From assembly GCF_022809115.1 (NCBI RefSeq), contig NZ_JALGBH010000001.1, positions 1,364,001 through 1,428,000 on the forward strand: a stretch of 64,000 nt of DNA, given 5' to 3'. Under the pieces are notes generated by a model that worked only from the letters and a program-made list of their open reading frames with translations, searched no databases and was not told the DNA's origin. Both the position numbers and the translations under genes were made by a program. This DNA comes from Pedobacter montanisoli. Lineage in GTDB: Bacteria; Bacteroidota; Bacteroidia; Sphingobacteriales; Sphingobacteriaceae. Of this stretch, positions 2,991-32,383 are shown piece by piece. Each line of letters starts with the position of its first letter. The stretch's first letter is position 1.

Positions 2991-3833
2991 ATGACCGCAT
3001 TGTTATTCACAATAATAGTTTTGCTTGGCTCATTCTTGGCTGGTTTTTTAGGCTCTTTAACAGGATTGGGTGGAGGAGTAATTATCATTCCTTTACTTAC
3101 TTTAGGTTTGGGTGTAGATATACATTATGCTATTGGTGCCTCCATTATATCTGTAATTGCAACATCAACCGGTTCTGCAGCAGCGTATGTGAAAGAAGGT
3201 TTAACCAATATGCGTATAGGAATGTTATTAGAAATCGCAACCACTATAGGGGCTATATTAGGGGCCGTGATAGCGGTTTATTTAAATGCATCTTATGTAG
3301 CTGTAATATTTGGATTGATTTTAATCTTTTCATCTGCTATGACCTTAAGGAAAAAGGTAGATCATGTTAATCAGGATTATAGCAGTAAGTTAGCCAAGTT
3401 CTTTAGATTGAACAGCTCTTACCCAAATCAGGGCGTAGAAACCCCTTATGCCGTAAGAAATGTGGGGGGAGGCTTTTTTATGATGCTTTTTGCTGGTACC
3501 TTATCAGGATTGTTAGGTATAGGCAGTGGAGCGTTAAAAGTAGTAGCGATGGATAATATTATGCGTTTACCTTTTAAGGTATCAACCACAACCAGTAATT
3601 TTATGATGGGTGTTACTGCTGCTGCAAGTGCCATTGTTTACTTACACAGAGGGCAAATAGATCCTACAATTGCAATGCCTGTTTGTTTAGGCGTATTGTG
3701 CGGAGCCACTGTAGGTGCAAAGGTTTTGGTTAATGCAAATACAACCAAACTTAAAATGGTATTTGCTGTAGTTGTTACCCTATTAGCCATACAAATGATC
3801 TATAAGGGATTAACCGGAGGTTTTGGAGGCTAA
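2991..3833 (+). CDS. TauE/SafE family sulfite or anion exporter (membrane permease)
   Basis: This 280-residue polytopic inner-membrane protein has the two-fold internal repeat of the TauE/SafE (DUF81) family. The first half carries GLTGLGGG (about 22-29), the second LLGIGSG (174-180), and a hydrophilic cytoplasmic segment of about 30 residues (122-155) joins them. Family members move sulfite, sulfonates or related organic anions; the substrate cannot be read from sequence. The next gene starts 1 base after the stop codon, so the two are almost certainly translationally linked. Confidence 0.88.
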   Translation: MTALLFTIIVLLGSFLAGFLGSLTGLGGGVIIIPLLTLGLGVDIHYAIGASIISVIATSTGSAAAYVKEGLTNMRIGMLLEIATTIGAILGAVIAVYLNASYVAVIFGLILIFSSAMTLRKKVDHVNQDYSSKLAKFFRLNSSYPNQGVETPYAVRNVGGGFFMMLFAGTLSGLLGIGSGALKVVAMDNIMRLPFKVSTTTSNFMMGVTAAASAIVYLHRGQIDPTIAMPVCLGVLCGATVGAKVLVNANTTKLKMVFAVVVTLLAIQMIYKGLTGGFGG

Positions 3834-30357: not shown

Positions 30358-30394
30358 AAAGTCCGGTTATTTTAAAATGGCCGGACTTTTTTTA
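30358..30394 (+). terminator. Terminator after icd
   Basis: AAAGTCCGG (30358-30366) pairs with CCGGACTTT around a 14-base loop, followed by a long T-run. A similar sequence occurs at 31853-31897. Confidence 0.88.
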
Positions 30395-30503
30395 TGTTTT
30401 TTGATTATGCTTATTCGCTTTCACCCATAAAGAAACTTTATCAAAATAAGCTAGCTACTACCATAAAGAGCGTGAGATATATGTTTTGTTTTGTAACAAT
30501 ATA

Positions 30504-30534
30504 TTGTTTTATTTTGAAGCAAATGTTATCTTTG
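30504..30534 (+). promoter_or_regulatory. Promoter of the toxin-antitoxin module
   Basis: TTG (30504-30506), 20 bases, then TATCTTTG (30527-30534), an exact -7 match. It ends 27 bases before the antitoxin ATG. The antitoxin has its own HTH domain, so autoregulation is likely. Confidence 0.75.
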
Positions 30535-30561
30535 TAGAATAATACCGAAACAGAAGTGAAT

Positions 30562-31353
30562 ATGAGTTTAGAATTGTCGAAAAGCGTAATTGGTCAGAGA
30601 ATAGCTGCCCTTCGTAAAGCGAAAGGCTTGTCTCAGGAAGATTTGGCCAAGAGCATTGAAGTTTCCCGTCCGGTTTTAGCTCAAATTGAGTTGGGAAACA
30701 GAAGTCTTGATGTTCTTGAATTGCAAAAACTGTCAATGATCTTGAAATTTTCAGTTGATGATTTTATGTCTAAGGATTTTCTTATAAAGGAAGTTGTTGG
30801 TGTACAAGAAGAAAAGAAAGTAAAGAAAGAAGTAGAAGAACGTGTTTCCGTGCCAACCTTACAGATCAATAAGTTTAAAAATGTTTTGTTATATATCCTT
30901 GAACGATGTGCAGGCAAGCCCAATGTTGGTGAAACGGTTCTTTACAAATTGCTCTATTTTTCTGATTTCAATTATTATGAATTGTATGAAGAACATCTAA
31001 CCGGGGCTAAATATCGAAAACTGCCTTATGGACCTGTGCCACAAAATTTAGATGCTATTATTTTACAAATGATTGAGGATGGACAATTACAAAAGGTAAA
31101 AACAAAGTACCATGATTTTATCCAAACACGTTATTTGCCATTAGAGAAAGCTGATTTGACTGACCTACTGGCAAGTGAAAAGGAAGTCATCGATAAGGTT
31201 GTTGAACAGATGAGCGACTGGTCTGCTGCTTCGATCAGCGACTATTCTCATAAGGATATGCCTTGGCTGGCTTCAAAAGAAGGAGAGGAAATAAATTATG
31301 AATTGGCTTTTTATAGGGATGCTCCTTTTTCTGTAAGAAACTATGGTGATTAA
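30562..31353 (+). CDS. Panacea-domain antitoxin with N-terminal XRE helix-turn-helix (PanA-like)
   Basis: The ATG at 30562 is chosen over a GTG two codons earlier. Residues 5-65 are a Cro/C1-type HTH (IGQRIAALRKAKGLSQEDLAKSIEV in part, with RPVLAQIELGNRSL). A charged linker follows. Residues ~105-255 match DUF4065, the SocA-like or Panacea domain, with KLLYFSDFNYYELY and GAKYRKLPYGPVP. Panacea proteins are neutralising partners in type II toxin-antitoxin systems. The next gene starts 11 bases on and looks like the toxin. Confidence 0.85.
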   Translation: MSLELSKSVIGQRIAALRKAKGLSQEDLAKSIEVSRPVLAQIELGNRSLDVLELQKLSMILKFSVDDFMSKDFLIKEVVGVQEEKKVKKEVEERVSVPTLQINKFKNVLLYILERCAGKPNVGETVLYKLLYFSDFNYYELYEEHLTGAKYRKLPYGPVPQNLDAIILQMIEDGQLQKVKTKYHDFIQTRYLPLEKADLTDLLASEKEVIDKVVEQMSDWSAASISDYSHKDMPWLASKEGEEINYELAFYRDAPFSVRNYGD

Positions 31354-31364
31354 ATTGAAGCGTA

Positions 31365-31709
31365 ATGACCTTTAACGAATTAATCGAGTTTAAAAAAGAT
31401 CTGAAATACCTTTTAAAAAAATACAGAACACTAAATGATGATTTAGAGGTCGTAAAACAAGTGTTGGAAGTTACTCCGGATGAAAGACCTCCATTTAGTT
31501 TTCGTATCGATAACTTAGGTTTAGAAACCTGTATCATAAAGGTTAAGAAAATAGCTTGTAAGGCGTTAAAAGGAAAAGGGATAAATTCGGGATTGAGATT
31601 AATTTATGCTCATTTTCCTGAGGAAAAGAAAATTACGTTCATTGAATTGTATCATAAGAACGATAAGGAAAGTGAAGACAAGAGAAGAATAACAGATCAT
31701 TTCAGATAG
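31365..31709 (+). CDS. RelE/HigB-like toxin, partner of the Panacea antitoxin
   Basis: 114 residues. It has the RelE-superfamily layout: N-terminal helices (FNELIEFKKDLKYLLKKY), a beta-strand with a basic segment (CIIKVKKIACKALKGKG), then SGLRLIYAHFPEEKKITFIELYHKNDKE, matching the yRviY...I.lieiY.K core. Catalytic Lys and Arg candidates are K67-K80 region and R84. It would cut mRNA on the ribosome if active. Close linkage behind the antitoxin supports the call; toxin activity is not shown by sequence. Confidence 0.75.
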   Translation: MTFNELIEFKKDLKYLLKKYRTLNDDLEVVKQVLEVTPDERPPFSFRIDNLGLETCIIKVKKIACKALKGKGINSGLRLIYAHFPEEKKITFIELYHKNDKESEDKRRITDHFR

Positions 31710-31895
31710 GGAAAAATGAAACAATAGAAAAAGCATTAAAACTACACAGGATTTTAACATTTACATATACGATTAATAAATCTTCTATTTGCTTTTTGTT
31801 CATACCTGCCTTAATTGATTTATTATATAAAATCTTTAATGCAGCTTTGTCTAGTTCGGGTAAATTAAAATGACCGGACTTTTTTTGTGTTTTTA
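31705..31895 (-). pseudogene. Possible gene fragment between toxin and next gene
   Basis: On the minus strand about 60 codons are open without a proper start; the peptide includes LPELDKAALKILYNKSIKAG and NKKQIEDLL, which reads like real protein. It overlaps the decayed terminator copy. I cannot name a parent family. It may be chance. Confidence 0.2.
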
Positions 31896-31897
31896 TA
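31853..31897 (+). repeat. Second, decayed copy of the icd terminator
   Basis: About 37 of 46 positions agree with the sequence at 30358-30403, including an unbroken ACCGGAC/CCGGAC plus T-run and TTAAAATG in the loop. The left arm is mutated, so the hairpin is weaker. With the first copy it brackets the toxin-antitoxin genes. Confidence 0.7.
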
Positions 31898-32383
31898 GTT
31901 TTGTTTTAGTAAGATAAGTCTTGAAATGATAAAACCTAGAAGAAGAGCAATGATGTAAATAAATATGAATACCGAAAAGTTAAAAGGTTTGTTTATACGT
32001 TCATAAACAATCTTGTCATCTGCACTAATGCGGTACACTTTTGGCTTTACCTTATTAAAATCTGATTTTTTGATCCAGACGTAAATTATACCTGCGTAAT
32101 GCATATCTGAATTAACACCCTGCAAAATATTGAAACCTTGATATACATTAGTGATATCTAATTTTAAGAGATAGTACTTATTACTGTTCTTTAATATGAA
32201 ACTTAAACAAGCATATTTGGTAGAATCCTTGTTGTTATTTTTTTCGAATCGGGTATAGCTGTTTGTCTTGAGAAGACTACCTTTAATTTTTATTAAATCG
32301 TTATCACCAAAAATATACGGGATAAACGCTATATAAAATACACTTGTGGCTATTATAATTAAGTATGGATATAAGCGTTTCAT
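31865..32383 (-). CDS. Hypothetical protein with two membrane segments
   Basis: 172 residues. A hydrophobic N-terminal segment (LYPYLIIIATSVFYIAFIP) and a second one near the C-terminus (about 138-160) enclose an extracytoplasmic region of ~110 residues that looks beta-rich. I do not recognise the family. The last codons lie inside the decayed terminator copy, so the C-terminus (KNTKKVRSF) may be a recent product of that rearrangement. Confidence 0.5.
   Translation of the reverse strand: MKRLYPYLIIIATSVFYIAFIPYIFGDNDLIKIKGSLLKTNSYTRFEKNNNKDSTKYACLSFILKNSNKYYLLKLDITNVYQGFNILQGVNSDMHYAGIIYVWIKKSDFNKVKPKVYRISADDKIVYERINKPFNFSVFIFIYIIALLLGFIISRLILLKQNYKNTKKVRSF

Follow-up and report, generated by a model that had tools for sequence, protein, structure and literature searches.

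In higBA operons the toxin gene comes first and the antitoxin has no Panacea domain, and SocA of the type VI system SocAB is the protein that gave the Panacea domain its name. PanAT systems have been published (PMC8832971; NetFlax 2023, PMC10440598), and Kurata et al. 2022 (PMC8832971) list 343 HTH-bearing PanAs, with ParE among the partner domains. PanAT systems, HTH-PanAs and ParE-type partners are therefore already known, and the gene pair described here, located in a window of 64,000 nucleotides (the whole stretch of Pedobacter montanisoli DNA that was analysed), is a further member. It resembles the PanAT systems of these two papers (PMC8832971, PMC10440598) in the Panacea antitoxin with N-terminal HTH, the first position of the antitoxin gene, the close spacing of the two genes, the variable partner toxin and the horizontal mobility. 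It differs in that the window toxin belongs to a divergent RelE/HigB2 family that is invisible to Pfam, NCBIfam and PADLOC as a single sequence, and in that a tandem operator and a pairing fixed across the phylum are described for it below from data.

The closest solved toxin by both profile and fold is HigB2 of V. cholerae HigBA2 (PDB 5ja8, 8a0x), which is likewise paired with an operator-binding antitoxin (binding is predicted for the window antitoxin), although its identity to the window toxin is about 17–20% over the fold. With SocAB the locus has the Panacea domain in common, but the window antitoxin carries an added HTH, scores 13.7 bits in the NCBIfam SocA equivalog model against a cut-off of 190, and has a RelE-like partner rather than SocB; action as a ClpXP adaptor is not implied. 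The Bacteroidota RelE toxins of loci L025–L031, from the same bacterial order, are 27–33% identical to the window toxin, but they lack the insertion near residues 46–63 and are accompanied by a small Phd/RelB-like partner of about 66–75 aa instead of an HTH-Panacea protein. Such small antitoxin-like proteins (one weak Phd/RelB match) are encoded upstream of the more distant toxin relatives from the order, and this partner swapping is expected of RelE-type toxins. The features of the locus are the following (positions in the window).

30358–30389, + strand: intrinsic terminator of icd (14-bp stem; fold −18.1 kcal/mol, z −6.35)
30360–30401, + strand: left-hand member of a 42-nt direct repeat, overlapping the icd terminator
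30482–30498, + strand: putative operator palindrome 1, TGTTTTGTTTTGTAACA (tandem arrangement conserved in the alignment)
30505–30521, + strand: putative operator palindrome 2, TGTTTTATTTTGAAGCA, 23 bp after palindrome 1 and overlapping the expected −33 region
30527–30534, + strand: Bacteroidota −7 element TATCTTTG (TAnnTTTG), from motif conservation in the modules
30562–31353, + strand: PanA-type antitoxin gene (263 aa, ATG start; HTH_3 and SocA_Panacea matches)
31365–31709, + strand: predicted toxin gene of the RelE/HigB2 superfamily (114 aa; from profile, fold and family scan)
31853–31894, + strand: second, degenerate icd terminator copy (86% identical across 42 nt; weak fold, z −1.25)

The two genes and their products

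The initial annotation had claimed an HTH-DUF4065 (Panacea) protein starting at 30562 and, 11 bases behind it, a second ORF guessed by eye to be RelE-like. Both ORFs were found at these positions with a gap of 11 nt; the program-made ORF list puts the antitoxin start at GTG 30556, and the ATG at 30562 was used here. The domain content of the first protein was confirmed as well, since its HTH_3 domain (residues 14–68) was matched in Pfam with E 2.9e-12 and its Panacea domain (residues 127–235) by PF13274 SocA_Panacea above the cut-off with E 3.5e-22. A variable linker (about 73–98) lies between them and a C-terminal tail (236–263) follows. The AF2 model of the antitoxin was weak overall (pLDDT 64, pTM 0.47) and insufficient for placing the toxin interface.

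As a single sequence the toxin stayed without a hit in Pfam, NCBIfam and PADLOC within the thresholds applied, and its sole match in such scans was phrog_5869, an unnamed phage family (1.2e-5). The profile of the toxin family (40 relatives), by contrast, found V. cholerae HigB-2 with E 5e-8, and PF06296 RelE was matched at E≤0.1, mostly weakly, by 29/40 aligned members. The AlphaFold2 model was moderate (pLDDT 77, pTM 0.73), and Foldseek returned HigB2 as its best solved match with a probability of 1.00, followed mostly by RelE, YoeB, YafQ and HigB. Since the Foldseek E-values were modest (about 1e-3), the call of a RelE fold rests on profile and fold combined. On these grounds the guess made by eye holds, also in structure prediction, and the second gene product is taken as a protein of the RelE/HigB2-superfamily fold. 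Residues K14, P38, K69, G70, G72, G76, R78 and K98 remain invariant with the 27–33% identical relatives added to the alignment; the basic ones lie at positions typical of RelE nucleases, and their catalytic roles are presumably those of the RelE motif.

The toxin is presumably a ribosome-dependent mRNA interferase. However, the fold alone does not settle the target, as gyrase inhibitors (ParE) are also found among RelE-fold proteins, and the same operon might encode a ParE-type gyrase inhibitor instead. The superfamily fold is common to both kinds of toxin and PF05016 ParE_toxin was matched weakly by 3/40 family members, but this stands against the 29/40 for RelE and against the conserved basic residues, whose positions we take to be those of RelE nucleases. 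ParE is named among the Panacea partners in Kurata 2022 (PMC8832971), whereas HigB2, the closest match by profile and fold, is reported as a ribosome-dependent mRNase in the title of reference 60 of PMC10440598, and a gyrase inhibitor is accordingly improbable.

Promoter and operator

Both 17-bp palindromes upstream of the antitoxin gene are of the TGTTTT...AAAACA type, and a high-scoring pair of them exactly 23 bp apart was present in 95% of 91 modules but in 0.5% of shuffles. The −7 element occurred in 78/91 modules (about 14 in shuffles), and in 65/91 it lay at a fixed offset, 22 nt from the start of palindrome 2. E. coli sigma-70-type promoters were not enriched (11 sigma-70-like sites vs 16 expected). 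The “consensus promoter” read earlier at this place is real insofar as the module has a promoter of its own, but it is of the Bacteroidota type (TATCTTTG at 30527–30534) and not an E. coli sigma-70 promoter.

The tandem operator overlaps the window promoter, so that by sequence the locus has the palindromic operator over the promoter that is characteristic of type II toxin–antitoxin operons. Because the upstream DNA outside the operator and promoter is mostly dissimilar between modules, the conservation of the operator is most likely functional. The tandem palindrome site occurs only once in the host genome, which indicates pure autoregulation, and a wider regulon of the operator was rejected on the same count. 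It can be suggested from these sequences that the HTH of the antitoxin binds the tandem palindromes and represses its own promoter.

In loci L006–L020, which belong to the hom-locus clade described below, the −7 box is situated only a few nt before the antitoxin ATG, unlike in the other modules; the antitoxin transcript of these loci would therefore be leaderless or nearly leaderless.

Pairing, insertion and decay of the module

Relatives of the module were gathered from Bacteroidota genomes and from the host's order, and both genes are present at 95 loci, always on one strand and with the toxin gene directly behind the Panacea gene. Over all loci checked, identity was 52–81% for the antitoxin and 58–89% for the toxin. 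The partner lies well within 100 nt across species, the intergenic gap being mostly −4 to +11 nt; the 4-nt overlap usual in the modules (gap −4 in most) is lost in the window copy (gap +11). In 301 genomes of the order, intact antitoxin and intact toxin were never found apart from the partner or its remnant, and no close antitoxin relative without a toxin gene or toxin remnant was detected. The module was present in 16/395 genomes of the class, spread over many families, that is, in about 4% of the species sampled. Phage or plasmid carriage was rejected after 50,697 phage records, 72,556 plasmids and viral contigs had yielded no toxin match.

As cases of an intact toxin with a broken antitoxin, two loci were rejected. 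L090 looked like an intact toxin with a broken antitoxin, but around 3197–3236 its antitoxin gene contains sequencing-adapter-like sequence and a run of unknown bases, an artefact of the public assembly. In L177 an otherwise intact toxin has no adjacent antitoxin, which counts against the toxin–antitoxin reading, but an IS21-type (IstB-like) element sits directly upstream, where the antitoxin and the promoter should be.

About a tenth of the modules have a third gene, for a protein of the DUF2188 family (PF09954, 4.9e-21), behind the toxin gene, for example, 7 nt downstream of it in L044 (about 1686–1922) and also in L036, L038, L045, L102, L003 and L004. It is decayed in L041, L080, L108 and L109 and absent from the window.

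The 42-nt repeat with the icd terminator has only two copies in the host genome, and these bracket the module. The first insulates the module from icd read-through, while the second, at 31853–31894, is probably the right-hand boundary of the insertion. The icd gene of congeners has a terminator behind it, many of these genomes then carry a 133-aa gene and dnaX, and the module is absent there, which bears out the earlier proposal of an insertion at the 3′ end of icd. The absence of phage or transposon genes also held, as none was seen among the neighbouring ORFs at 26–37 kb. The insertion had been called recent, too, and this was not supported, given a dS of about 0.8–1 to the nearest known copies and the 86% identity of the flanking terminator copies. 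Flanking direct repeats were found in 9/91 modules vs 8/1509 control windows in a first control, but they were rejected as a general signature of module insertion, as the intergenic-only control gave 3/30 vs 15/198 (Fisher p 0.71); the repeat of the icd terminator thus stands as a local feature of the window.

A gene for a 172-aa hypothetical protein without family match (31865–32383, − strand) overlaps the degenerate terminator copy. One congener (L125) has a weak relative near icd, thus the gene is probably resident and lies outside the insertion.

Other members of the host's genus carry the module at a different site, between the homoserine dehydrogenase (hom) gene and a transporter gene (L006–L024). 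The hom-locus copies form one clade in the tree (100/100) and the window copy falls outside it, indicating a separate acquisition; the insertion of the window copy is independent of the hom-locus copy of the congeners. At the hom locus, the ancestral site in the genus, the module is a long-standing resident passed on vertically, and part of this lineage is in decay, graded down to bare toxin remnants. We propose that horizontal transfer carries the module in one piece of about 1.25 kb, from the operator to the toxin stop.

Loci with a single broken gene have lost the toxin gene, the antitoxin remaining intact (stops in L005 and L008, a frameshift in L022 and a truncation in L186), while in L015 both genes are decayed and in L021, L023 and L024 only toxin remnants are left. 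Toxin-first loss is the order expected if the antitoxin is needed as long as the toxin is active, and it speaks indirectly for a toxic second product neutralised by the first, but such loci are few. Comparison with the nearest known copies gave a dN/dS of about 0.07–0.11 on both genes, both of which are under purifying selection. These data bear on the question of whether the window module itself is a decaying, inactive toxin–antitoxin remnant, as the hom-locus remnants of several congeners (L015, L021, L023, L024) and the lost 4-nt overlap might suggest. This is very unlikely, since both window frames are intact, the invariant residues are kept, dN/dS is about 0.1, and the promoter and operators are undamaged. 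Hardly credible is a pair retained for its regulatory function, with a transcription regulator and a small partner that is not toxic (a two-gene sensor, for instance), which would agree with the very conserved operator of the HTH protein, with a Panacea core more conserved than the HTH domain and with the maintenance of the pair at one chromosomal locus in the genus, but not with the RelE/HigB2 fold and conserved basic residues of the second protein, the onset of decay in the second gene, or the single tandem operator in the genome, which leaves no wider regulon.

The proposed operon and the role of the Panacea domain

The locus is very probably a type II PanAT operon, in which a self-repressing HTH-Panacea antitoxin neutralises a RelE/HigB2-type toxin. 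The gene pair, its fold class, the fixed pairing, the conservation of the operator, the purifying selection and the independent insertion are established computationally; toxicity, neutralisation, RNase activity and the trigger are inferred. The first gene product would occupy the two 17-bp palindromes over its own promoter through its HTH domain, shutting down the operon, and it would also bind and neutralise the product of the second gene, a RelE/HigB2-fold enzyme that most likely acts as a ribosome-dependent mRNA interferase. If the antitoxin were lost or disturbed, the toxin would be freed and translation would stop; by analogy, phage infection is a candidate trigger of this release. In the window, the module is inserted between icd and its downstream neighbours, presumably as a horizontally moved unit.

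A sensor role for Panacea was proposed in PMC10440598. Over 35 pairs, conservation was 0.77 in the Panacea core and 0.83 in the stretch just before it, compared with 0.64 in the HTH, 0.69 in the tail and 0.72 in the toxin. The divergence of the toxin followed that of the HTH (r 0.61) and the tail (r 0.54) and hardly that of the Panacea core, for which r was 0.34 and the regression weight about 0, but these correlations are exploratory, with ancestry shared among the pairs, low variance in the core and no significance test. The pattern weakly favours a sensor role for Panacea. Tentatively, and with less than even likelihood, the Panacea core of this family may be a strongly conserved sensor of a common trigger rather than the neutralising part, with the HTH and the C-terminal tail holding the HigB2-like toxin.

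The toxin, blank in the annotation libraries tried, gains a sequence family, an operator and conserved residues by this analysis, and the control region of this Panacea–toxin module is unusually well conserved. A HigB2-like member is added to the folds paired with Panacea, which may be among the unnamed toxin clusters of PMC8832971. Since the pair is fixed across Bacteroidota (about 4% of the species sampled), it makes a good natural series on the role of Panacea, and if the sensor reading is true, this phylum-wide module would allow the sensor hypothesis for Panacea to be tested.
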